From positions 1 to 24,341 of IMG/VR virus record IMGVR_UViG_3300042402_000973: a stretch of DNA of 24,341 bases. One strand, given 5' to 3'. The position numbers and the translations under genes are program-made. Origin of the DNA: a virus. How positions within the stretch are numbered: position 1 is the first letter of the stretch; each line of letters begins with the position of its first letter. The notes below the pieces were generated by a model. That model worked only from the letters and a program-made list of their open reading frames with translations. It ran no database searches and had not been told where the DNA came from. Below are positions 5 through 12,734 of this stretch, one piece after another.

Positions 5-1180
5 ATGAATCAGGTTTTGCAAACTAAGACACAGGAACATCTTGATGCCGTTGCAGATACAGAAGATGCTTTAGAGTTAAAGAATAGCAAAATACAAATA
101 TATAATCAATCAATAACTGATTTAAATAATGCTATTGATGATGCATGGCGTTACTATGATGAGCAACTACAAAGAGAAATTCAGTCTGCCATTGCTCAAG
201 CAGCAGCCAACGCTGCAGCCAATCAGCCTACTCCAGAACCAACTCCAGAAACAAGCCCTGAACCAAGTCCTAAGCCTACAGAAGAACCTACAGAAGAACC
301 TACAGAAGAGCCTACAGAAGAGCCTACAGAAGAGCCTACAGAGGAACCAAGCCCTGAACCAACAGAAGAGCCAACTCCAACGCCAACTCCAAAGCCTACA
401 GAGGAAACAAAGCCTACTCCTACGCCAAAGCCATCCCCAAAGCCTACAGAGGAACCTACGGAGGAACCTACAGAGGAGCCAACTTCTGAACCTACAGTAG
501 AACCTACACCAGATCCAGAACCAACTACAGAACCAACTACGGAGCCTACGGAAGAACCCACAGAAGAGCCTGCTCCTGAACCTTCTCCAGAACCAGGACC
601 AGAACCTGATCCTGAAGAAAACCCATGGACTGAGCCAGATGTAGAAGTTAAAGATGAGGTTTTAGCAGAACTTATTCCTGAAAAGGGTACAGGAACAGCA
701 GAAGATTTATCTGGAGTTATTGCTAACCTTACAAGCAAGGACAACAAATTAGTTACACTTTCTGCTGAACAAGTCACAGCAGTAAGTCAAACCCTTAAAG
801 CATTGACGCAAGAAGCAAAAGTAGAAGTTGCAGAAGACCTTGGTATTAAGCCGTCAGAAGTTGCAGAGATTGCTGAGCAGATGAAGTCTAACCCAGCACT
901 TGCTGAAGCATTTGTTGAGTTTACTGACAGAGCAGAATCAGCAGGGGATACACCAATGCCATTTACATTAGCAGATGCAGTAACAGAAGTACAAACAGAA
1001 GCATTTTTAGCAGATCCAATTGGGGCAGTGCTTGATGTAGATGTAGCAGAATTACTATCTAATTTCTCTGAGTTAGGTAGCGATATGACAGATGATCAGA
1101 GAGAGAAGGCCCAAGAAGTCATTATTCCAGTAATCATTGTTTCACAGATTGCCAACATGATGATTGGGATGAGGAGGTAA
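5..1180 (+). CDS. Pro/Thr/Glu-repeat phage protein (5' end probably outside window)
   Basis: The frame is open to the left edge, so the first ATG at 5 may be internal and the protein partial. As read it has 391 residues. Residues 1-70 look helical or coiled-coil (acidic/amide-rich, Ala-rich end). About residues 75-215 are a low-complexity linker of PTEEP, PTPEP and PSPEP units, and the remainder is an acidic, mostly helical domain. Such Pro/Thr linkers occur in phage structural or tail-associated proteins and in secreted proteins. No enzymatic motif is visible. A strong GGAGG at its 3' end serves the next gene. A virion or tail role is inference from position next to the lysis genes. Confidence 0.7.
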   Translation: MNQVLQTKTQEHLDAVADTEDALELKNSKIQIYNQSITDLNNAIDDAWRYYDEQLQREIQSAIAQAAANAAANQPTPEPTPETSPEPSPKPTEEPTEEPTEEPTEEPTEEPTEEPSPEPTEEPTPTPTPKPTEETKPTPTPKPSPKPTEEPTEEPTEEPTSEPTVEPTPDPEPTTEPTTEPTEEPTEEPAPEPSPEPGPEPDPEENPWTEPDVEVKDEVLAELIPEKGTGTAEDLSGVIANLTSKDNKLVTLSAEQVTAVSQTLKALTQEAKVEVAEDLGIKPSEVAEIAEQMKSNPALAEAFVEFTDRAESAGDTPMPFTLADAVTEVQTEAFLADPIGAVLDVDVAELLSNFSELGSDMTDDQREKAQEVIIPVIIVSQIANMMIGMRR

Positions 1181-1182
1181 GA

Positions 1183-1389
1183 ATGAAAATAATAAAAAAG
1201 GTTGTGAAGGGATTCTTCACATGGCTTAAAGATGCAGGTTTGGAAATAATTGCTCAAGCATTTACCCTCCTTGGCTTCTTTATTGCTTGGTTAACATTAA
1301 CAGGATCAGCCAGAGACATTGTTGGTATTGCAGTATTAATAACAACAGTAATTTGGCTTATTACAATCCCGCTAAGAAAGGAGGACTAA
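1183..1389 (+). CDS. small two-helix membrane protein, possible holin
   Basis: This 68-residue protein has a basic amphipathic N-terminus (KKVVKGF) and two hydrophobic segments at about residues 20-40 and 44-62. It ends in a charged RKED tail. The start is fixed by AGGAGG about 6 bases before ATG. It lies 2 bases after the repeat protein and 2 bases before another small hydrophobic protein. The two-helix topology, size and the endolysin about 2 kb downstream fit a holin or holin-like lysis protein, but no diagnostic family motif was recognised. Confidence 0.65.
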   Translation: MKIIKKVVKGFFTWLKDAGLEIIAQAFTLLGFFIAWLTLTGSARDIVGIAVLITTVIWLITIPLRKED

Positions 1390-1391
1390 AT

Positions 1392-1676
1392 ATGGCAACT
1401 AAAAAGGTAGTAGAGCCTCCTAAGAAGGAGCACCCACAAAAGGCTTTGACAAATGTCTTGATGCGTATCGTAGCAGTGTTCGCTGCTTCTGGTCTATCAG
1501 TACTTGGTGCTGGAGCAGTAGTAGGAATTGATACAGTCCAGGCAGTTATGCTTGCGGGTCTATTAGGCGTAGCCACCGTTATTGAAAGGCTTGCAAGGGC
1601 TTTTTTGGACGATGGAAAACTCACATTGGCAGAGATCAATGATGCGTTTAAGACGGTAGACAAAAAGGCTAATTAG
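1392..1676 (+). CDS. holin-like membrane protein
   Basis: This protein has 94 residues. The start at 1392 is chosen over an upstream in-frame codon because AAAGGAGG sits at 1377-1384 and the upstream extension overlaps the preceding gene. A Lys/Pro-rich cytoplasmic-looking N-terminus is followed by a hydrophobic segment at about 24-45 and a second at about 50-68, then a charged helical tail (LTLAEINDAFKTV). Actinophages often carry such proteins near the endolysin, where they are annotated as holins. Two candidates in tandem could be a holin/antiholin pair; this is inferred from size and location only. Confidence 0.65.
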   Translation: MATKKVVEPPKKEHPQKALTNVLMRIVAVFAASGLSVLGAGAVVGIDTVQAVMLAGLLGVATVIERLARAFLDDGKLTLAEINDAFKTVDKKAN

Positions 1677-1692
1677 TCATTATTGACGATAG

Positions 1693-1722
1693 TTGACAGC
1701 CCTCTCTGGGTAATGGTATACT
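1693..1722 (+). promoter_or_regulatory. SigA-type promoter for the Ntn-hydrolase gene
   Basis: TTGACA lies at 1693-1698 and TATACT at 1717-1722, 18 bp apart. The predicted start is near 1729, giving a leader of about 25 bases with GGAG before the ATG at 1754. The promoter is embedded in an inverted repeat (1698-1706 with 1740-1748). Confidence 0.75.
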
Positions 1723-1748
1723 TGAGTATCACCTATCTGGAGAGGGCT
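1698..1748 (+). repeat. 9-bp inverted repeat around a promoter
   Basis: AGCCCTCTC at 1698-1706 is the perfect complement of GAGAGGGCT at 1740-1748. The second arm covers the ribosome-binding region of the gene at 1754, and the -10 box lies in the loop. The full hairpin can form only in read-through RNA from upstream, where it is followed by TTTG. It could act as an attenuator or weak terminator that hides the ribosome-binding site in read-through transcripts. Confidence 0.5.
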
Positions 1749-1753
1749 TTGTC

Positions 1754-2278
1754 ATGACTTGTATTGTTGCTTTACGCCATGAAGAAAAAGTTTATATGGC
1801 TGGAGATCGTGGAGCATCAGATGATGGAGTTATTCTTTCACTTGAATCACCAAAGGTTTGGAAGACTGGCCCATATTTAATTGGATACGCTGGATCAATG
1901 GACGGGGATAGAATTAGACATAATTTTAAACCAACAGCACCTAACATTAAAGATACAGATAAGTTTATGCACACAAGGTTTATTAAAGAACTTCGTGAGT
2001 TTTATAACGAGTTCTGGATTGATACTTCTAAAGACGGAGAACTAAGTTTGATTATTGGCATTCGTGGAGAAATCTATGAGCACAGTTCTGGAGATATGTC
2101 TTTATCTAAGTATTCAGTTCCATATATTTCTATTGGCTCTGGATCAGAATATGCTTACGGAGTTATGTATGCAACAGACAAACAAAAAAATGCAAGGAAT
2201 AGAGTAGTTCAGGCAGTAAATGCAGCAATTAAATTTAACCCATCCTGTATGGGACCAGTTGACATCATAAGCGCTTAG
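1754..2278 (+). CDS. proteasome-like Ntn hydrolase (HslV/T1 family)
   Basis: This 174-residue protein begins MTCIVAL. After Met removal Thr is N-terminal, as in the T1 threonine peptidases (proteasome beta, HslV). Asp18 in AGDRGAS and Lys34 in ESPKVW match the family's Asp17 and Lys33 with the one-residue Met offset. A glycine-rich YAGSMDG (compare HslV FAGG) and a C-terminal ISIGSGSEYAYG follow the fold. The length equals HslV. No unfoldase partner is visible, so it may self-assemble or work with a host ATPase. It has its own promoter and leader. The fold is well supported; peptidase activity and substrate are inference. Confidence 0.8.
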   Translation: MTCIVALRHEEKVYMAGDRGASDDGVILSLESPKVWKTGPYLIGYAGSMDGDRIRHNFKPTAPNIKDTDKFMHTRFIKELREFYNEFWIDTSKDGELSLIIGIRGEIYEHSSGDMSLSKYSVPYISIGSGSEYAYGVMYATDKQKNARNRVVQAVNAAIKFNPSCMGPVDIISA

Positions 2279-2287
2279 GGGTATACT
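2259..2287 (+). promoter_or_regulatory. leaderless promoter for the 72-aa acidic protein
   Basis: TTGACA at 2259-2264 lies inside the end of the previous gene. It is followed by a 17-bp spacer, TATACT at 2282-2287, six bases, then ATG at 2294. The expected start site coincides with the A of ATG, so the mRNA should have no leader. Confidence 0.8.
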
Positions 2288-2293
2288 TAGTAT

Positions 2294-2512
2294 ATGAACG
2301 AAGAATTTGAAGAGATCCTAAAGGACATTCAGAACATAGAGTCAGACTTTGATGAGTTTGAAATCTGGCTTGATAATGGAATTCAGCGGGGATGGATAAC
2401 AGAACCATTCTGCAATACTCATGAGGGAGATCCCTACATGACAGAAGAAGAACAGCAAGAGTGGGAAGAAGGCGGAGACCCATGCCAAGTAGTTTTAAAA
2501 ATCAAACAATAA
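2294..2512 (+). CDS. acidic phage protein of unknown function
   Basis: This 72-residue protein is strongly acidic: about a third of its residues are Asp or Glu, with runs such as TEEEQQEWEEGG. It has no membrane segment, and two Cys that do not form a zinc motif. It is expressed from a leaderless promoter just upstream. The next gene starts 17 bases downstream with its own ribosome-binding site, so the two may share a transcript. I do not recognise the family. Confidence 0.7.
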   Translation: MNEEFEEILKDIQNIESDFDEFEIWLDNGIQRGWITEPFCNTHEGDPYMTEEEQQEWEEGGDPCQVVLKIKQ

Positions 2513-2529
2513 ACAACAAGGAGAAAACA

Positions 2530-3399
2530 ATGAAAAAAGTACTACTCGCACTACTATCTATTGCACTTGCTTTTACAGCAATGCAGCCATCACAGGCACA
2601 AGATCAGAAAGTCCTAGCAATTATTGATACTGCTATTGATTCAAAGCAGTTCCCGCAGATTATTCACGAAGTATGTTTTAATACACACACACCAACTTGT
2701 CCAAATGGAAGTAAGTTTATGGAAGGTATAGGCGCTGCAAACTTATCTGTATGGCCAAAACCAAATGTATCTGGTGCTTGGCATGGCGACTGGATGGTAA
2801 AGGGAGCACTAAAGGCTGATCCTACAGTTAAGATTGTATTCATTCGATACGTTGAGGTCACTGGCTCTAACACATACCGCAATGATGCTTTGTCTTTGGT
2901 AGATGCAATTGATTGGGTATCAAAGAACGCAGAAAAATATAGCATTGATGCTTTATCAATTAGCCAATCTAACACTAACCTACCATCTTGGTGCACAGGA
3001 AACAATGTAACGGTTAATGCAGTTGCATTATTAAATAGTAAGAATGTTCCAGTTTTTGCTGCAACAGGAAATAACGCAAGAGCAGATGTTGTTGGATTCC
3101 CATCATGCGTTAGTGGAGTAATTGGCGTTGGTGCTCTAACACCAAGTAGAACTAGTTTTGAAAAATCAACAAATGGACAATCAAAGACTAATCCTGGTAT
3201 TGATATTGCTACTTTTGGAGCAGTAGAAATCCATATGGGAAATAATCTTAACGCTAAGTTTAATCTTGCTGGGTCTTCAGGAGCAAGTGTGGCTTCAGCA
3301 ACAAAATACTTAAAAAATAACACATTCAAAACTTTTCAAGAGTATTTGAGTGCTCTTCCAAAGATTATAATTAATACGGTAACATATAGTTCAAACTAA
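2530..3399 (+). CDS. secreted subtilisin-like (S8) serine protease
   Basis: This protein has 289 residues. The start at 2530 is chosen because AAGGAG precedes it and a signal peptide follows at once (KK, a hydrophobic core, and SQA before residue 25). Subtilase landmarks appear in order: Asp33 in IIDTAID, His85 in WHGDWM, an oxyanion Asn near 181 in AATGNN, and Ser250 in GSSGASVASA. The Ser block departs from the usual GTSMA. Secreted proteases are unusual phage cargo. It could process surface or virion proteins, or be a phage-carried host gene. The fold is well supported; activity is likely but unproven. Confidence 0.8.
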   Translation: MKKVLLALLSIALAFTAMQPSQAQDQKVLAIIDTAIDSKQFPQIIHEVCFNTHTPTCPNGSKFMEGIGAANLSVWPKPNVSGAWHGDWMVKGALKADPTVKIVFIRYVEVTGSNTYRNDALSLVDAIDWVSKNAEKYSIDALSISQSNTNLPSWCTGNNVTVNAVALLNSKNVPVFAATGNNARADVVGFPSCVSGVIGVGALTPSRTSFEKSTNGQSKTNPGIDIATFGAVEIHMGNNLNAKFNLAGSSGASVASATKYLKNNTFKTFQEYLSALPKIIINTVTYSSN

Positions 3400-3434
3400 T
3401 TATAAGTCCTGGGCATGACTAAAACTGCCTACCT

Positions 3435-3507
3435 TGCCCTATAACTCAGATGGTAGAGTGCCGAACTGTTAATTCGGATGTCCCTGGATCGAGGCCAGGT
3501 GGGGCAG
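3435..3507 (+). tRNA. tRNA-Asn (anticodon GTT)
   Basis: The cloverleaf is complete. The acceptor is TGCCCTA (3435-3441) with TGGGGCA (3500-3506), the D stem ACTC/GAGT with GG in the loop, and the anticodon arm CCGAA-CTGTTAA-TTCGG with GTT at 3468-3470. The T stem is CCTGG/CCAGG and the discriminator is G. The T loop reads ATCGAGG, with A instead of T at position 54. CCA is not encoded. Confidence 0.9.
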
Positions 3508-3512
3508 CATGA

Positions 3513-3541
3513 TATAATTATATAAAGATTCCTAAAGGAGG
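3513..3541 (+). promoter_or_regulatory. -10 box and ribosome-binding site of the endolysin gene
   Basis: TATAAT at 3513-3518 follows the tRNA directly. A strong AAAGGAGG lies at 3534-3541, five bases before the ATG at 3547. I see no convincing -35. Unlike many genes here, this one has a leader with a strong Shine-Dalgarno. Confidence 0.55.
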
Positions 3542-3546
3542 ATATC

Positions 3547-4185
3547 ATGGCAGCAAAAGGTAGTCTAGACGCAATCATTGAGGTTGCAAAGAAAGAAGTG
3601 GGCACAATTGAAGGCCCAAAAGATAACGAAACAAAGTATGGTGCATGGATTAAGGTTAACTTCCAGCCATGGTGCCAATCTTTTGTTTCTTGGTGTGCAT
3701 TTACATCAGGCGTAAAGTCATTCCCTAAGTCTGCATCAACAGTTGCAGCAGCAGATTGGTTTAAGAAGGCTGAGCGTTGGTCAGATGCTCGTAATGATGA
3801 TCCGCAAGCAGGAGACTGGATCTATTTTGATTTCCCCGATGATGGTGTAAATCGTATTTCACATGTTGGTCTTTGCATTAAGAACAATGGCGATGGAACA
3901 ATTCAAGTTATTGAAGGAAACACTTCAGGAACTGCAAAGGGAGACCAGCGCAATGGAGGAATGTGTGTCGAGAAGACTCGTGCATATGTAAAGAACAACA
4001 AGAAGAAGTTAGTAAATGCTGTAGTTGGTTGGGGTCGTCCAGTTTATACTGGAGAAGAGAATGCTCCACTACTAAATAAGATTGTTGCATCTGCAACAAC
4101 AGCAGCACCAGTTAAGAAGGCAGCACCAAAGCCAGCAGCAAAGAAGCCATCTGGTGGCGGAGGAAAGTCTCAGGTAGCACTATAA
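3547..4185 (+). CDS. CHAP-domain endolysin (peptidoglycan amidase/endopeptidase)
   Basis: This protein has 212 residues. Residues 5-160 form a CHAP (NlpC/P60-like) domain, with Cys43 in PWCQSFVSWC as likely nucleophile and His106 in ISHVGL as the second catalytic residue. IEGN supplies the usual polar residue, and the GDWIYFDFP strand precedes the His as in the family. The C-terminus is a Lys/Ala/Pro-rich tail ending in a Gly run, possibly a charged wall-binding extension. There is no signal peptide, so export would need a holin; candidates lie at 1183, 1392 and 9042. It overlaps the next gene by one base. Confidence 0.85.
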   Translation: MAAKGSLDAIIEVAKKEVGTIEGPKDNETKYGAWIKVNFQPWCQSFVSWCAFTSGVKSFPKSASTVAAADWFKKAERWSDARNDDPQAGDWIYFDFPDDGVNRISHVGLCIKNNGDGTIQVIEGNTSGTAKGDQRNGGMCVEKTRAYVKNNKKKLVNAVVGWGRPVYTGEENAPLLNKIVASATTAAPVKKAAPKPAAKKPSGGGGKSQVAL

Positions 4186-4403
4186 TGGAGTCAAGAAGAA
4201 AGTCATTACTAAAGACTATAAGTTGGCCATTTGTACACTTTACTTTTGTTTCTGGAATAATTTATTTTGTTCTAAAGTATTACACTGGAGAGGCAGAGTG
4301 GGAGTATGTTGGTCTATATGGACTATCATATCTAACACTAGAAATGACTTTCTTCTATCTTCATGAAAGAATTTGGGCGAAGTTTGGAAAGAAGGTAAAG
4401 TAA
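4185..4403 (+). CDS. DUF2061-like small membrane protein
   Basis: This 72-residue protein starts in the stop codon of the endolysin (TAATG). Its pattern is a basic N-terminus (RRKSLLKTISWPFVH), a hydrophobic helix at about 17-31, a second helix at about 42-58 with E..FFYLHERIW, and a basic tail. This matches the DUF2061 layout and resembles the clearer DUF2061 protein at 5775. Function is unknown for the family. The link to lysis is only positional. Confidence 0.7.
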   Translation: MESRRKSLLKTISWPFVHFTFVSGIIYFVLKYYTGEAEWEYVGLYGLSYLTLEMTFFYLHERIWAKFGKKVK

Positions 4404-4510
4404 TGAGAATTAAGATTATTAAATTTGTTGTAAAGGCTTTAGGCTATGAGTGGTCTGGAGATGAACTCAAACTGCCAGTTTGGTATGTAAAAGAAAAGAA
4501 AAAGAAGTAA
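4403..4510 (+). CDS. 35-aa basic mini-protein
   Basis: The ATG overlaps the stop of the preceding gene (TAATG). The product begins MRIKIIKFVVKALGYEWSG and ends in a Lys-rich tail (KEKKKK). It has no membrane segment or metal motif. Its reality rests on the tight start/stop coupling on both sides and on filling the gap before the next gene. Function unknown. Confidence 0.55.
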   Translation: MRIKIIKFVVKALGYEWSGDELKLPVWYVKEKKKK

Positions 4511-4514
4511 ATTT

Positions 4515-4700
4515 ATGCCAGCATATGAGTATGACTGCATGGTTTGTGCTGTAAGATACACAAAAATTCGTGGAATATCTGAAGATGATCCAGGATATCA
4601 ATGTGAGACTTGCAATAAGTCTTTAGTTCGTGTATACTCTAATATAGGAGCAGTATTCAACGGTAGTGGATTTTATTCCACTGATAACAGAAAGCGGTAG
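4515..4700 (+). CDS. FmdB-type zinc-ribbon protein
   Basis: This 61-residue protein begins MPAYEYDCMVC, the hallmark start of FmdB-family zinc ribbons. CxxC at residues 8-11 and CETC near 36-39 make a four-Cys site. It ends with the family's typical FNGSGFYSTDNR. FmdB proteins are annotated as putative regulatory zinc proteins without a firmly known role. It sits 4 bases after the mini-gene and just before another zinc protein. Confidence 0.8.
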   Translation: MPAYEYDCMVCAVRYTKIRGISEDDPGYQCETCNKSLVRVYSNIGAVFNGSGFYSTDNRKR

Positions 4701-4716
4701 TATACTTATGAGTATC

Positions 4717-4968
4717 ATGACTAACATATTGGCAAAAGAAGAAGTCCAGGAATGGACCCTTAGTCCACTAGATAGGTGTGACAGATGTAATGCAGAAGCA
4801 CTTGTAAAAGTTACGGGATTGTCTGGAGAACTAATGTTCTGTGGCCATCACTACAATAAGATCATGTCTATTCCAGACGGCTATAACAGCATGATGTCAT
4901 TTATGGTTAGCATTGTTGATGAGCGAGAAAAACTTATTGAAAATAGAGCAAAGGGAAAAGATTACTAA
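4717..4968 (+). CDS. DUF7455-like zinc-binding protein
   Basis: This protein has 83 residues. The core LDRCDRCNAEALVKV, followed by LMFCGHHYNK, resembles the actinobacterial DUF7455 zinc module (CxxC plus CxHH). A -10 box TATACT at 4701-4706 overlaps an alternative in-frame ATG at 4708, which is why I prefer 4717. The stop overlaps the next start by one base (TAATG). Bacterial relatives often lie near sigma-factor genes, so a role in host transcription is possible but speculative. Confidence 0.75.
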   Translation: MTNILAKEEVQEWTLSPLDRCDRCNAEALVKVTGLSGELMFCGHHYNKIMSIPDGYNSMMSFMVSIVDEREKLIENRAKGKDY

Positions 4969-5729
4969 TGATTATTCAGATTATTGGCCTACCTGGTTCT
5001 GGTAAAACAGAATTAGCAAAGGCTCTAAAAGAGCGTATTAATGCTATACATCTTAATGCAGATGAGGTTCGTGCAACCGTAAATTCAGATCTTGGTTTTA
5101 CACCAGAGGATCGACTTGAACAAGCACGACGCATGGGAGAGATGGCAAGACTTATCTCTAATCAGGGAGTAGCACCAGTAATCGTTGACTTTATTTGCCC
5201 AACAGACCTTACTCGTGCAGCATTCGGTAAGCCTGACATATTAGTATTTATGGACACCCTTGCTGAAGGTCGTTTTGAAGACACAAATAAAATGTTTGAA
5301 CGACCAACAGAGTTTGATGTCTCATTTATTAGTCACAACTTGGATGCAGAAGCAAAGGCATCTCACATCATTGATAAGTTTAGTCTTCACGATTGGTCTG
5401 CACCTACAACACTAATGCTGGGTAGGTACCAGCCTTGGCACGAAGGCCACCACGCCCTTTATAAGGAGGCTGGCAAGAGAACTGACCAAGTACTTCTTGG
5501 AGTCCGTAATACCTATAATACAAGTGAGAAAGATCCACTTAAGTTTGATCAGGTAAAAGAATATATTGCTAAGGATGAATTTATGGATGGAGCATTAGTA
5601 CTAAGACTACCTAACATTACCAACATTGTATACGGTAGAGATGTAGGATATAAAATTGAACAAGTAGATTTGGGGGCAGACATTCATGCTATATCGGCTA
5701 CGCAAAAACGTAAAGAGATGGGTATCTAA
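4968..5729 (+). CDS. P-loop kinase / nucleotidylyltransferase fusion
   Basis: The 253-residue protein has two parts. Residues 1-140 are an APS-kinase-like P-loop domain with Walker A GLPGSGKT at 7-14 and HLNADEVR near 28-35. Residues 148-253 are a cytidylyl/NMN-adenylyltransferase-like domain with GRYQPWHEGHH at 152-162 (the HxGH ATP motif) and ISATQKR at 242-248 (the ISxTxxR motif). Possible reactions include nucleotide-sugar or phospholipid-precursor activation, sulfate activation or NAD salvage. The substrate cannot be decided from sequence. It overlaps the DUF7455-like gene by one base. Confidence 0.8.
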   Translation: MIIQIIGLPGSGKTELAKALKERINAIHLNADEVRATVNSDLGFTPEDRLEQARRMGEMARLISNQGVAPVIVDFICPTDLTRAAFGKPDILVFMDTLAEGRFEDTNKMFERPTEFDVSFISHNLDAEAKASHIIDKFSLHDWSAPTTLMLGRYQPWHEGHHALYKEAGKRTDQVLLGVRNTYNTSEKDPLKFDQVKEYIAKDEFMDGALVLRLPNITNIVYGRDVGYKIEQVDLGADIHAISATQKRKEMGI

Positions 5730-5774
5730 GGTCTGGAACTTGATTACTAAGCCAAACAATATAGAGTGGCCGTC

Positions 5775-5978
5775 ATGAATGTATCTAAACAAAGATCAGC
5801 ATTAAAAGCAATTACTTGGCGTATAATTGGAACAGCAGATACATTTGCTATTGCTTGGCTTATAACCAAAGAGCCAGTTACAGCAGGTGCAATCGCAAGT
5901 TTCGAGGTAGTTACAAAAACAATCCTTTATTACTTCCATGAGCGTGGTTGGAATAAAGTTAAATGGGGGAGAAAATAA
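5775..5978 (+). CDS. DUF2061 membrane protein
   Basis: This 67-residue protein has a classic DUF2061 sequence: KQRSALKAITWRIIGTADT, then a hydrophobic helix, then ASFEVVTKTILYYFHERGW. The ATG at 5775 is chosen over a GTG nine bases upstream because family members begin just before the K/R-S-L-K-A stretch; neither start has a clear ribosome-binding site. It is the second DUF2061-like gene in the window (compare 4185). Its stop overlaps the nuclease start (TAATG). Function unknown. Confidence 0.8.
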   Translation: MNVSKQRSALKAITWRIIGTADTFAIAWLITKEPVTAGAIASFEVVTKTILYYFHERGWNKVKWGRK

Positions 5979-6385
5979 TGTATGAATACTATGTAAGAAA
6001 AGTAGAGAATGTCGTAGATGGAGATACCATTGATGTTCTTATTGATTTAGGGTTTGATATTCTCTTTCAGTCCCGTGTGAGATTGGCTGGTATTGATACA
6101 CCTGAGTCTCGTACAAAAGATCTTAAAGAGAAGGCTCTTGGCCTTGAGTCTAAAGAGTATCTCAAAAAGCACCTTAAGGATGCCAAGTCTGTTGTTATTA
6201 AGACTGAGAAGATGGACTCATCTGAAAAGTATGGTCGCATTTTGGGCTGGGTATATATTAATGGAGACACAGTATCTCTTAACGATATGATGATTAATGA
6301 TGGTTACGCTTGGGGATACTTAGGTGACACCAAGGTCAAAGACTTTGATGCTCTTGCAAAGGCTAGAAAAAAGTCTGGTAAGTAA
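5978..6385 (+). CDS. staphylococcal-type nuclease (SNase/thermonuclease)
   Basis: This 135-residue protein carries the family motifs VVDGDTIDV (12-20) and VRLAGIDTPE (34-43), with EKYGRILG near 83-90. Arg35, Asp40, Glu43 and Arg87 fall at the numbers used for the catalytic and Ca-binding residues of mature S. aureus nuclease. A purine-rich GGGGGAG lies about 6 bases before the ATG. There is no signal peptide, so it should act inside the cell on DNA or RNA, perhaps in host nucleic-acid breakdown. The start overlaps the upstream stop. Confidence 0.88.
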   Translation: MYEYYVRKVENVVDGDTIDVLIDLGFDILFQSRVRLAGIDTPESRTKDLKEKALGLESKEYLKKHLKDAKSVVIKTEKMDSSEKYGRILGWVYINGDTVSLNDMMINDGYAWGYLGDTKVKDFDALAKARKKSGK

Positions 6386-6386
6386 C

Positions 6387-6611
6387 ATGGGCCTTCAAGA
6401 AGAAGCAATGCTAGAGCATTTAATGCTTCAGGGTGCTTTAGAATTCCAGGGAATTGATGATGTCACTGGCGAGATGATGTATGGTATTACAGACAAGATG
6501 AAGGAAGTAAGTCCAGAAATCTATAATCAATTAAAAGACCAATATGAAAATCATATGTTTCAGTTAATTGATCAAGGCCCAACAAGGATGACTTGGAAAG
6601 TTAAAGTATGA
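6387..6611 (+). CDS. phage protein, first of a tandem paralogue pair
   Basis: This 74-residue protein begins at ATG 6387, one base after the nuclease stop. The pattern LQGALEFQGIDDVTGEM, a Y-G/N-x-TDK element and a P-E helix recur in the next gene, so the two are a duplicated pair. It is soluble, mixed alpha/beta by composition, with no catalytic motif. Its end overlaps the next start by 4 bases. Function unknown. Confidence 0.72.
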   Translation: MGLQEEAMLEHLMLQGALEFQGIDDVTGEMMYGITDKMKEVSPEIYNQLKDQYENHMFQLIDQGPTRMTWKVKV

Positions 6612-6940
6612 ATTCCGAAGACGAAGAGATAGAAAGACTTATACTTTTTGGAGCACTTGAACCAGCAGGAATAGACGAAGAAACTGGAGAGTTTTTATAT
6701 AACTTTACAGACAAACTTGCCAAGGTAAATCCAGAACTGCATAAAGATGTTTCTTTACATTTTTATAATGAGACTATGTATCTTTGGAGTCATGGCTTTC
6801 TTGATATGGACATAACATCTTCAAACCCAATAATAAACCTGGGTCCAAAAGCCTTTGATCCCCAAGCGGTCAATCTATTAGAAAAAAATAAAAGGCTGGT
6901 TTTTGAAGAAATTAGCAAAGTTCTTTCAGAAAAAAAGTGA
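6608..6940 (+). CDS. phage protein, second of a tandem paralogue pair
   Basis: This 110-residue protein starts in an ATGA overlap with the preceding gene. Its first 65 residues (LFGALEPAGIDEETGEF, then NFTDKLAKVNPEL) align with nearly the whole upstream protein. About 45 extra C-terminal residues carry an acidic/basic helix ending EISKVLSEKK. The pair probably arose by duplication and then diverged. Function unknown. Confidence 0.75.
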   Translation: MNSEDEEIERLILFGALEPAGIDEETGEFLYNFTDKLAKVNPELHKDVSLHFYNETMYLWSHGFLDMDITSSNPIINLGPKAFDPQAVNLLEKNKRLVFEEISKVLSEKK

Positions 6941-9319: not shown

Positions 9320-9352
9320 AGCAGGCTAGGGTAGTTGACTAGCCTGCTTTTC
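9320..9352 (+). terminator. intrinsic terminator after the holin-like gene
   Basis: AGCAGGCTAG (9320-9329) pairs perfectly with CTAGCCTGCT (9339-9348) across a 9-base loop and is followed by TTTTCT. The next promoter's -35 box lies in the loop and 3' arm. Confidence 0.88.
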
Positions 9353-9363
9353 TATGCTATAAT
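9335..9363 (+). promoter_or_regulatory. SigA-type promoter for hsp20
   Basis: TTGACT at 9335-9340, a 17-bp spacer and TATAAT at 9358-9363 form a near-consensus promoter overlapping the upstream terminator. The predicted start is near 9370, giving a leader of about 50 bases with AAAGGGG before the ATG at 9421. A short CCC/GGG hairpin in the leader could matter for heat control, but I cannot show an RNA thermometer. Confidence 0.8.
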
Positions 9364-9420: not shown

Positions 9421-9825
9421 ATGGTAAAAACAGCACTGGATCTTTTTAATGATCCATTCTTCAACACCTTCTCAAATTTTCAGAAGGTAACAACAGCAAC
9501 AAACTATCCACCTTATAATCAGATCAAATTAAATGATACAGAGTATATTCTGTCATTTGCTTTGGCTGGTTTTTCTAAGGATGATGTCTCAGTATCGCTA
9601 GACAATCGCAAACTTACAATCAAGGGCGAAAAGCAGGACACTGAGTTGCCAGAGGGAGCAGAGTATCTACACAAGGGCATCGCAGCCCGTAAGTTTACAG
9701 ATATCTTCACCCTTCCTGAGTTTGTTGAGGTTATTGGGGCTGAATTCAAAGACGGTATCTTAGATGTCAGACTTGAAAAGCAGATCCCAGAAGACAAACT
9801 TCCAAAGACTATTGAAATCCAATAG
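9421..9825 (+). CDS. Hsp20 / alpha-crystallin small heat-shock protein
   Basis: This 134-residue protein fits the family size. The N-terminal arm has DLFNDPFFNTFSNF. The alpha-crystallin domain from about 35 includes YILSFALAGFSKDDVSVSL, LTIKGEKQD, and GAEFKDGILDVRLEK (the A-x-x-x-n-G-x-L motif). The C-terminal tail KTIEIQ supplies the I-x-I anchor. The protein is an ATP-independent holdase. IbpA-like proteins also occur in cyanophages, where a virion-assembly or stress role is suspected. It has its own promoter and leader. Confidence 0.9.
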   Translation: MVKTALDLFNDPFFNTFSNFQKVTTATNYPPYNQIKLNDTEYILSFALAGFSKDDVSVSLDNRKLTIKGEKQDTELPEGAEYLHKGIAARKFTDIFTLPEFVEVIGAEFKDGILDVRLEKQIPEDKLPKTIEIQ

Positions 9826-9831
9826 TATAAT
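9826..9831 (+). promoter_or_regulatory. -10 box ahead of a structured non-coding RNA
   Basis: TATAAT at 9826-9831 overlaps the hsp20 stop region and predicts a start near 9838, with no gene downstream for 190 bases. No good -35 is visible. Confidence 0.45.
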
Positions 9832-9837
9832 GGATAA

Positions 9838-9951
9838 CATTCCGCTATGAGACTTTAAAAGGTTTTACAACGGATGCTCTTATGAGAAGAGAGTTAGCAG
9901 GAGTCGAATCTTCGTGGCTAATAGACCTGAGCAGTCGTCTATAAACTGCTC
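9838..9951 (+). ncRNA. candidate structured RNA ending in an H-type pseudoknot
   Basis: No convincing ORF occupies 9826-10027. Complementary segments in order are TCCG 9841-9844 with CGGA 9871-9874, CTCTT 9877-9881 with AAGAG 9887-9891, and TTAGC 9894-9898 with GCTAA 9917-9921. The last two pairs interleave: ATAGAC 9921-9926 with GTCTAT 9937-9942, and GAGCAG 9929-9934 with CTGCTC 9946-9951. That is a classic pseudoknot with 2-, 2- and 3-base loops. It could be a trans-acting RNA, a pstS leader element or part of an RNA decoy. I match it to no known class. Confidence 0.5.
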
Positions 9952-10014
9952 ATTATTCATCTTAAGTTCATCGCTAGTTTCCAGTATTTGATCGCTAATG
10001 TAGTCATTCTAAAG

Positions 10015-10020
10015 TATACT
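10015..10020 (+). promoter_or_regulatory. -10 box of pstS (near-leaderless)
   Basis: TATACT at 10015-10020 is followed by seven bases and the ATG at 10028. The mRNA should start at or within one or two bases of the start codon. No ribosome-binding site is present. Confidence 0.65.
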
Positions 10021-10027
10021 TATTAGC

Positions 10028-11023
10028 ATGAAGATTAAACTCATCATAGCAACACTAATCTCTAGTGTCTTGTTTATACCTACCGCACAAGCAGCAGATC
10101 TAACTGGCTCAGGCTCGTCATTTGCTTCTAATTTTATAGAGAAGTGCAGAGTGACATATGCTTCATCTGGTAATAACATTTCCTATACCCCAAACGGATC
10201 AAGTTCTGGAAAGAATCAATTTGCTCTAGGTTTGACTGATTTTGCTATTAGTGATGTTCCATATGGATCATCAGAAGTAAAACCAAAAACTGATTTTGTC
10301 TATGTACCAATTGTTGCTGGTCCTATTGCTATTAGTTATAAATTAGATGGCTATAAAGGTCAAATAAAACTAACCAAAGAAAATCTAGCAAAGATTTTTG
10401 CTGGTCAAATTAAAATGTGGAATGATCCACTTCTAAAGAAGAACAACCCAAGTAAACTTCCAGCAAAAAGAATAACTGTTATTTATAGAGCAGATGGATC
10501 TGGAACTTCTGAGGTTTTTACAGCCTACCTTAATACAGTTGCAAAAGATATATGGAATAAGCCTGCAAACAAATCTTTTTCTACTGCATATCCTAGCAAC
10601 ATCAATGAAAAAATAGGATCTTTTGTATCTGCATCTGGATCACAGGGCGTAGCAATACTACAGTCAAAGACAGATGGGTCTATTGCTTACAACGAAGTAT
10701 CATTCACTAAGCCTTTTGGTGTTGCCTATGTTGAAAATGGGGCGGGAAGGTTTATTAAGCCAACAGTAAATGCAGCATCAAGGTTTTTATCAGAGTTTAC
10801 AACTAACCCAAACGGAACAATTACTCCAAACTATAACAACCCTAACAAGGTAGCATACAATATTTCAACATTCAGTTATGGTATAGCAAAAGTTGGATCT
10901 AGCGATGTTGCTAAATTCTTTACATTTGCCATTACAAAATGTAAGGCTACAGAGTTTGGGTATTCTCCTATAAGTGGGAACGCCCTTAAACTTGCTAAAT
11001 CTCAAATAGCAAAAATTAAGTAG
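10028..11023 (+). CDS. pstS: PstS-like periplasmic phosphate-binding protein
   Basis: This 331-residue protein has an N-terminal signal peptide (KIK, a hydrophobic core, AQAA cleavage near 22-23). The mature start, DLTGSGSSFASNF, is the PstS phosphate-binding loop. Further landmarks are TDFAISDVPY, LTKENLAKIFAGQIKMWNDP, and ITVIYRADGSGTSEVFTAYL (second phosphate loop with R and GSGT). It would capture phosphate for a Pst ABC transporter. No transporter genes are here, so it would use the host system. Phage pstS genes are known from cyanophages as auxiliary genes. There is no lipobox Cys. Confidence 0.9.
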   Translation: MKIKLIIATLISSVLFIPTAQAADLTGSGSSFASNFIEKCRVTYASSGNNISYTPNGSSSGKNQFALGLTDFAISDVPYGSSEVKPKTDFVYVPIVAGPIAISYKLDGYKGQIKLTKENLAKIFAGQIKMWNDPLLKKNNPSKLPAKRITVIYRADGSGTSEVFTAYLNTVAKDIWNKPANKSFSTAYPSNINEKIGSFVSASGSQGVAILQSKTDGSIAYNEVSFTKPFGVAYVENGAGRFIKPTVNAASRFLSEFTTNPNGTITPNYNNPNKVAYNISTFSYGIAKVGSSDVAKFFTFAITKCKATEFGYSPISGNALKLAKSQIAKIK

Positions 11024-11029: not shown

Positions 11030-11035
11030 ATAGTT

Positions 11036-11119
11036 GTCCCACACAGGACCTTAGTGATGGATTAGTTACCCATTGGATAGAGACCGTGGCGCAAGTCAGG
11101 TGAATTGCCTGTGTGGGGC
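11036..11119 (+). ncRNA. candidate 84-nt structured RNA closed by a 12-bp stem
   Basis: Bases 11036-11047 (GTCCCACACAGG) pair with 11108-11119 (CCTGTGTGGGGC) over 12 bp with a single G-T wobble. Inside, ACCT pairs with AGGT, ATGG with CCAT and GAC with GTC, giving a multi-branched shape. The predicted start site falls on the first base of the stem. There is no T run, so it is not an ordinary terminator. It lies between pstS and an HNH gene that has its own -10. I recognise no known RNA family. Confidence 0.55.
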
Positions 11120-11133
11120 CTAACATTTGGCGG

Positions 11134-11139
11134 TATAAT
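11134..11139 (+). promoter_or_regulatory. -10 box of the HNH gene (near-leaderless)
   Basis: TATAAT at 11134-11139 is followed by seven bases and the ATG at 11147. No ribosome-binding site lies between them. Confidence 0.6.
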
Positions 11140-11146
11140 AATATCA

Positions 11147-11419
11147 ATGACTGACAAAGAGTTAGACCATTATAATAAGCAGCAGTATAAGAAGATGCTT
11201 GCTAAGATAAAAGAAGATTCTGGCTGTGTGGACTGTGGAATAAATAATCATATTATATTAGATTTTGACCACATAAGAGACAAAAAATACAATGTATCAA
11301 GGATGATCCATGATGGTTTTTCATGGAAGGCTATAAAGAAAGAGATTGAGAAGTGTGAAGTGGTTTGTGCCAACTGCCATAGAATAAGGACCCATAACAG
11401 ACTAAACGGCATGATATAA
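11147..11419 (+). CDS. small HNH endonuclease-like protein
   Basis: This protein has 90 residues. The start at 11147 is preferred because of the -10 box seven bases upstream; an in-frame start at 11105 would lie inside the structured RNA. It has CVDCG then LDFDHI (the HNH His pair region), and CANCHRIRTHNR (second CxxC followed by His). This is the compact zinc-bound HNH layout seen in free-standing phage homing-type enzymes. There is no separate DNA-binding domain apart from a Lys/Arg-rich middle. It could be a mobile nuclease or a packaging-type HNH protein. Confidence 0.8.
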   Translation: MTDKELDHYNKQQYKKMLAKIKEDSGCVDCGINNHIILDFDHIRDKKYNVSRMIHDGFSWKAIKKEIEKCEVVCANCHRIRTHNRLNGMI

Positions 11420-12670: not shown

Positions 12671-12734
12671 TATTAGGTAGTTTTAAGTCATACCCAGGAC
12701 TATTTAAAGTTGGGGGTCTAGTGTTGCAACATAG

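Follow-up and report, generated by a model that had tools for sequence, protein, structure and literature searches.

The REP/BIME elements of enterobacteria are intergenic, multi-copy chromosomal hairpins credited with halting 3' to 5' decay and thereby stabilising the upstream mRNA. The frameshift pseudoknots of poleroviruses and the viral exonuclease-resistant RNAs, both from eukaryotic RNA viruses, serve recoding or stop 5' to 3' nucleases and are mechanically resistant; in some viruses, knots stimulate stop-codon readthrough. Among phages, the pseudoknot in the 5' leader of T4 gene 32 is the autoregulatory operator of a single gene (PMC3014915). In Enterobacteriales, the STAXI motif (RF01728) consists of tandem knot repeats with UUCG loops (PMC2864571) and occurs on mobile DNA, close to genes for SSB and antirestriction proteins.

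Here we describe a pseudoknot of 26-29 nt, carried mainly by phages, that resembles each of these systems in part. Like REP/BIME, it is a gene-independent, intergenic, multi-copy RNA structure, but those are hairpins of Enterobacteria, whereas the knot was not found in E. coli. With the RNA virus elements it shares a very compact build, a first loop of 1-2 nt and an A-rich last loop, and with the T4 gene 32 element an H-type fold with a short first loop; unlike the latter, it has other stem lengths and is a general element, mostly located 3' of genes. STAXI is likewise a pseudoknot-based RNA motif, but the knots here are single and lack UUCG, E. coli yields no match and RF01728 is absent from the Rfam scans, so this identity was rejected. 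Like intrinsic terminators, the knot follows stop codons, has a U-rich tail and is interchangeable with a terminator at one junction; it differs from them in being a pseudoknot with conserved loops, behind which lie genes and tRNAs that are needed.

Rfam 15 scans at gathering and relaxed thresholds returned nothing on the knot (only tRNAs, GP20-b and DUF805b were found), in agreement with an earlier reading of this DNA from its letters alone (the sequence-only reading), which had matched the element to no known class. BLAST of the whole element against INPHARED gave no match, and the literature searched, the coverage of which was incomplete, held no description of the knot, a prior description elsewhere being possible. 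We conclude that the RNA class is new and that the job proposed for it below is of a known kind.

The cassette between hsp20 and pstS

The window, that is, the whole stretch of DNA analysed, is a 24.3-kb (24,341-nt) IMG/VR fragment of a freshwater phage. The cassette lies between hsp20 (9421-9825) and a gene for a PstS-like binding protein (10028-11023), the product of which has PF00011 and PF12849 matches. Its features are:

9826-9831, plus strand: -10 box TATAAT, immediately after the hsp20 stop codon (9823-9825); predicted promoter of the ncRNA cassette, with the RNA start expected at about 9838
9838-9954, plus strand: predicted type A ncRNA of about 115 nt, consisting of P1, P2, P3 and P4 followed by the 3' pseudoknot
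9841-9874, plus strand: 5' domain, predicted fold, with P1 (9841-9844/9871-9874) around P2 (9848-9855/9860-9867)
9877-9891, plus strand: hairpin P3 (CTCTT/AAGAG), with two-sided changes C-G, U-A, G-C
9893-9922, plus strand: hairpin P4 (9893-9898/9917-9922, inner 9900-9903/9910-9913), abutting the pseudoknot, with two-sided changes from U-A to C-G and from A-U to G-C
9923-9951, plus strand: H-type pseudoknot with stems S1 (9923-9926/9937-9940) and S2 (9929-9933/9947-9951, optional sixth pair 9934-9946) and loops L1 (CU, 9927-9928), L2 (9934-9936) and L3 (AUAAAC, 9941-9946)
10015-10020, plus strand: possible -10 box TATACT, read from the sequence, at which pstS may have its own promoter; its mRNA, with the ATG at 10028, would be leaderless

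The sequence-only reading had placed a -10 box at 9826-9831, exactly where TATAAT occurs, and had proposed two interleaved 6-bp helices (ATAGAC 9921-9926/GTCTAT 9937-9942 and GAGCAG 9929-9934/CTGCTC 9946-9951) with loops of 2, 2 and 3 bases; all twelve pairs are indeed Watson-Crick. The first helix holds only in its inner part. Its outer pairs (9921-9922/9941-9942) can form, but the conserved S1 has 4 bp; these pairs take bases from the conserved UAAAC loop region and are in competition with the covarying helix P4, and their equivalent in the wider family lacks covariation (51/209 Watson-Crick vs 60 expected). By chance, a shuffled strand is expected to hold 0.2 such pairs of perfect, interleaved 6-bp helices joined by short loops, which makes the fold only mildly unusual, and the region 9832-10027 folds with an ordinary minimum free energy (z -0.50); a single sequence is thus weak evidence, and the comparison of homologues decides. 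The likeness to riboswitches, tmRNA pseudoknots and ribozymes suggested in the same reading extends to shape and to nothing beyond it. A tRNA-like or tmRNA identity, hinted at by GGAGTCGAATC in P4, was rejected: neither ARAGORN nor Rfam finds one at 9838-9951.

A predicted autonomous small-RNA gene

A search for hsp20 relatives yielded 80 loci for comparison of the cassette. Positions 9826-9954 of the window align in more than 50 loci at 85-97% identity; the similarity mostly stops at the end of the pseudoknot (9954), and the rest of the pstS leader (9955-10027) is unconserved. The cassette, a -10 box followed by about 115 nt with the pseudoknot at the end, is carried by 62 distinct phage sequences, essentially all of which retain TATAAT or TACAAT at the -10 position within varied upstream contexts. 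All end in the 3' knot and have one of several middle parts, and most share the same P1 (UCCG/CGGA). Among the 44 type A sequences, P1 is invariant, the changes in P2 are mostly one-sided, and those in P3 and P4 are two-sided. In type B cassettes (e.g., L018 and L050), the 5' domain TTCCGTCATGATACATGCAGTTGC...GCAACCYTATTGCTGAGTACGGA is nearly invariant across about 50 nt; judging from this conservation, the loop could be a ligand or protein site.

The position of the cassette varies: it occurs after hsp20, before hsp20, and before an HNH gene or pstS. In some loci (L030, L040, L074, L181, L036), a convergent conserved gene ends 5-10 nt past the knot, with no sense gene downstream and no other terminator between the knot and the opposing stop codon; in others (L053, L058, L069, L033, L196), the upstream gene is divergent and no sense mRNA precedes the cassette. 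A leader fails to account for the former set and a 3'-UTR for the latter, whereas a stand-alone ncRNA fits both. From these comparisons, we infer that 9826-9954 is an autonomous small-RNA gene, presumably transcribed from its -10 box, and not the pstS leader. The earlier suggestion of phosphate control from the place before pstS was not borne out, as the cassette also stands beside hsp20, an HNH gene and others; the pseudoknot is neither unique nor bound to pstS, and a cis-regulatory riboswitch in a pstS leader was rejected because constant linkage to pstS or a pathway is lacking.

One contig binned as Chitinophagaceae (L264) carries a cassette of the window type together with an hsp20 gene and is probably a mis-binned freshwater phage.

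The window also contains a second, highly conserved structured RNA of about 85 nt (11035-11120, plus strand), with a long closing stem CCCACACAGG/CCTGTGTGGG and its own TACAAT box. It precedes a small HNH endonuclease gene (ORF 11105-11419), the likely leaderless start of which lies within the RNA region. This RNA has no Rfam family and was found in 95 loci, usually with the same HNH gene behind it in the listed examples; the two may form a mobile RNA-HNH unit.

Structure and covariation of the knot family

The consensus of the pseudoknot is NNNC-CU-NNNYA-N-GNNN-N-UAAAC-UGNNN, with a length of 26-29 bases (example, AGACCUGAGCAAGUCUAUAAACUGCUC); the knot at 9923-9951 is a 28/29-nt variant of the 26/27-nt consensus of the family. 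A 26-base pattern derived from the knot has numerous matches in viral contigs and, in GTDB genomes, occurs 67 times (about 9 expected by our own estimate), nearly always with the same spacing and mostly in intergenic regions.

For the covariation test, each stem in turn was left free in the search pattern, so that pairing was not selected. With S1 free, Watson-Crick pairs were found in 208/209, 207/209 and 138/209 matches, against 121, 106 and 66 expected; with S2 free, the corresponding counts were 155/183, 181/183 and 181/183, many of the copies being related, such that these counts are not independent events. Across 61 distinct knots, 95.4% of the cells are paired, two-sided cells number 105 vs 29 after shuffling, and the covariation score is 0.563 vs 0.186 for shuffled sequences, the signal being lost when the partners are slid. 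Thus, as judged by sequence comparison, both stems covary strongly across hundreds of copies. The absence of compensatory changes in homologues would have spoken against the sequence-only reading; they are present in both stems, and the comparison supports its structured RNA with a genuine H-type pseudoknot, the linked promoter being a predicted one. The invariant parts (C-CU, A, G and UAAACUG) were mostly fixed by the search patterns; when the loops were left free, CU appeared in 117/131 matches.

Spread across phages and hosts

The pattern occurs 87 times in 44 phage records, with up to 7 copies per record, whereas the reversed pattern does not occur. The carriers are phages of Firmicutes, Actinobacteria, Cyanobacteria, Alphaproteobacteria and Bacteroidetes, including Staphylococcus B166, Lactobacillus Lj771, Arthrobacter Amigo, Roseobacter SIO1, Lentibacter ICBM2, Synechococcus S-H35 and crAss cr7_1/cr124_1; Bacillus is also among the host groups, B. 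megaterium phage Page being a carrier. All plasmid matches (n=17) come from Firmicutes or Capnocytophaga. BLAST of 5,426 E. coli genomes (28 Gb), which is sensitive to near-consensus copies only, gave no knot match, and matches in E. coli phages (GJ1-like) proved to be chance, the knot being absent on inspection.

In two Nautiliaceae sequences (L234 and L236), the knot lies between feoB-like and porin-like genes, apparently in the chromosome and not in a prophage. In an Ignavibacteria chromosome (L259) with a CRISPR array at locus positions 36-6716, 4 of the 97 spacers contain the knot, all in the sense orientation, and several other spacers resemble terminator hairpins; acquisition of RNA-derived spacers by a reverse transcriptase was dropped as support, as no such enzyme was found in the genome.

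Placement relative to genes and tRNAs

The window holds two more copies of the knot and, upstream of hsp20, a terminator in the place that the cassette takes in relatives:

3405-3430, plus strand: second knot copy AGTCCTGGGCATGACTAAAACTGCCT, 5 nt past the stop of the gene at 2461-3399 and 4 nt before tRNA-Asn (3435)
12675-12701, minus strand: third knot copy AGTCCTGGGTATGACTTAAAACTACCT, at the end of another cassette of -10 box and hairpin, behind a carbamoyltransferase gene; kept in L008, L016, L039 and L079
12783-12788, minus strand: -10 box TATAAT of this third cassette
9320-9353, plus strand: intrinsic terminator, AGCAGGCTAG/CTAGCCTGCT followed by a T-rich stretch, upstream of the hsp20 promoter; relatives have a knot cassette there

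By simple ORF calls, the distance from the upstream stop to the knot is at least 5 nt with few exceptions (typically 5-9 nt, mode 6), and that from the knot to the next start mostly exceeds 15 nt (mode 20-25 nt), a spacing that leaves room for a folded knot between a ribosome terminating on one side and one initiating on the other. At 18 non-redundant places, the knot precedes a tRNA by 3-9 nt, and at one more by 14 nt; only 2 knots stand right after a tRNA, both within one tRNA array (L410). A relative (L170) has AGTCCTTGGTATGACTTAAAACTACCA 4 nt upstream of its tRNA-Asn, and the order of stop, knot and tRNA recurs in the annotated phages Amigo and crAss cr124_1. Clustering of the flanking proteins gives 102 unrelated clusters on the upstream side and 114 on the downstream side; given this diversity, the location mostly 3' of genes and no tie to an SSB leader, an operator of the T4 gene 32 type was rejected. 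The commonest recurrent site is that between a minor head or portal gene and a scaffold gene. The placement is gene-independent and intercistronic, as a REP-like 3' stabiliser requires.

In the 9 nt behind the knot, G falls to 4.6-9% vs about 20%, and U makes up about 40%; the tail is U-rich even without a nearby gene start, albeit less so than in ordinary terminators. At the junction upstream of the hsp20 promoter, the knot cassette is present in 16 distinct sequences and a hairpin terminator in 5, and 1 has neither. In L108, L109 and L124, the knot lies a few bases behind a -10 box.

Elsewhere (L254, 4290-4482), a GP20-b RNA (RF03003) and a scaffold gene are immediately preceded by two tandem knots, each of which has a T run behind it. 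The annotated tmRNA of crAssphage cr7_1 (L440, 2130-2486) is of the permuted kind (RF04321, 66 bits), and a knot lies in its intervening segment, 4 nt before the coding piece.

A proposed 3'-end barrier and the competing explanations

In most contexts, the knot is the last structure of the upstream RNA: it follows stop codons, precedes RNase P sites, closes ncRNAs or takes the place of a terminator. A barrier to exonucleases at the 3' end, acting in the manner of REP elements, is the simplest account. We put the probability that the knot is such a module, which defines 3' ends and stops exonucleases, at roughly 0.5; its structure, spread and placement are observed, and the function is proposed from them. 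Transcripts would run through the knot and then be cut or trimmed behind it, ahead of a tRNA by RNase P and otherwise within the G-poor, U-rich stretch of about 9 nt; 3' to 5' exonucleases would then stall at the tight knot, and a stable mRNA or ncRNA capped by it would remain. After cleavage by RNase P, the remaining tail of 4-7 nt would be too short for a 3' exonuclease to load. Counted against the 3'-end model are the two knots inside the L410 tRNA array, as are the copies behind -10 boxes, which would form the 5' end of an mRNA, are unexplained by it and favour a 5' role in those cases. Furthermore, the tail is such that 3'-end formation is not obvious from sequence, and the model leaves unexplained why a sequence-conserved knot is used instead of a plain hairpin.

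The main rival is an intrinsic terminator or attenuator of a knot type, in which a coaxial 9-bp knot and a weak A/U hybrid of about 9 nt halt or pause RNA polymerase. It draws on the position behind stop codons and before new promoters, on a U-rich, G-poor tail of hybrid length and on the alternation with a hairpin terminator at one junction; nevertheless, we consider it unlikely, because the tail reaches only about 40% U, tRNAs as well as scaffold and capsid genes that need transcription lie directly behind the knot, and a plain hairpin would suffice and would work in E. coli too, which yielded no copy of the motif.

Next in rank, and doubtful as a general role, is a stabiliser at the 5' side that blocks 5' to 3' decay by RNase J and shields the RNA behind it. 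The promoter-adjacent copies would fit, as would the knots that Firmicutes phages place before their highly needed scaffold and capsid genes; RNase J scores above the family cut-off in 37/49 genomes with the motif, and several of the others contain fragments of it or full-length matches with lower scores. However, the knot is closer to the upstream stop than to the downstream start, lies before tRNAs and not after them, and occurs without any sense gene behind it. It is also present in crAss phages and in Bacteroidetes genomes, the 2 tested of which have no RNase J above the cut-off, which weakens a dependence on this enzyme.

Still less probable is a binding site for a protein or ligand, whether it acts as a riboswitch or as an operator of translation, and phosphate control of pstS falls under this heading: the loop bases CU and UAAAC are conserved, and the knot of T4 gene 32 has this operator role (PMC3014915). 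Against this, the knots have no downstream gene in common, they lie too far from the start, and at too variable a distance, to mask the ribosome site, and knots also precede tRNAs and convergent genes. Finally, recoding, in which the knot would promote readthrough of the stop 5-9 nt upstream, was rejected as very improbable along with frameshifting, since, although the spacing and compact fold resemble known stimulators, the upstream stops are mostly UAA, further in-frame stops sometimes follow immediately, slippery sites are lacking, and the cassette and tRNA contexts offer no suitable reading frame.

Implications for phage biology

The 3'-end barrier extends to a broader proposal, which we advance tentatively and hold at somewhat below even odds: an undescribed class of 26-29-nt pseudoknots, found in unrelated phages of many phyla and missing from those of Gammaproteobacteria, would form a cap at the 3' ends of mRNAs and small RNAs of phages and block the host's 3' to 5' exonucleases, also at the ends that RNase P makes before phage tRNAs. 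The finding raises the question of why no knot has turned up in phages of E. coli and related bacteria. If the knot is a 3'-end cap, it would be a compact, portable part for stabilising mRNA, and it would account for the way in which phages that lack terminators between genes and tRNAs keep their messages intact.
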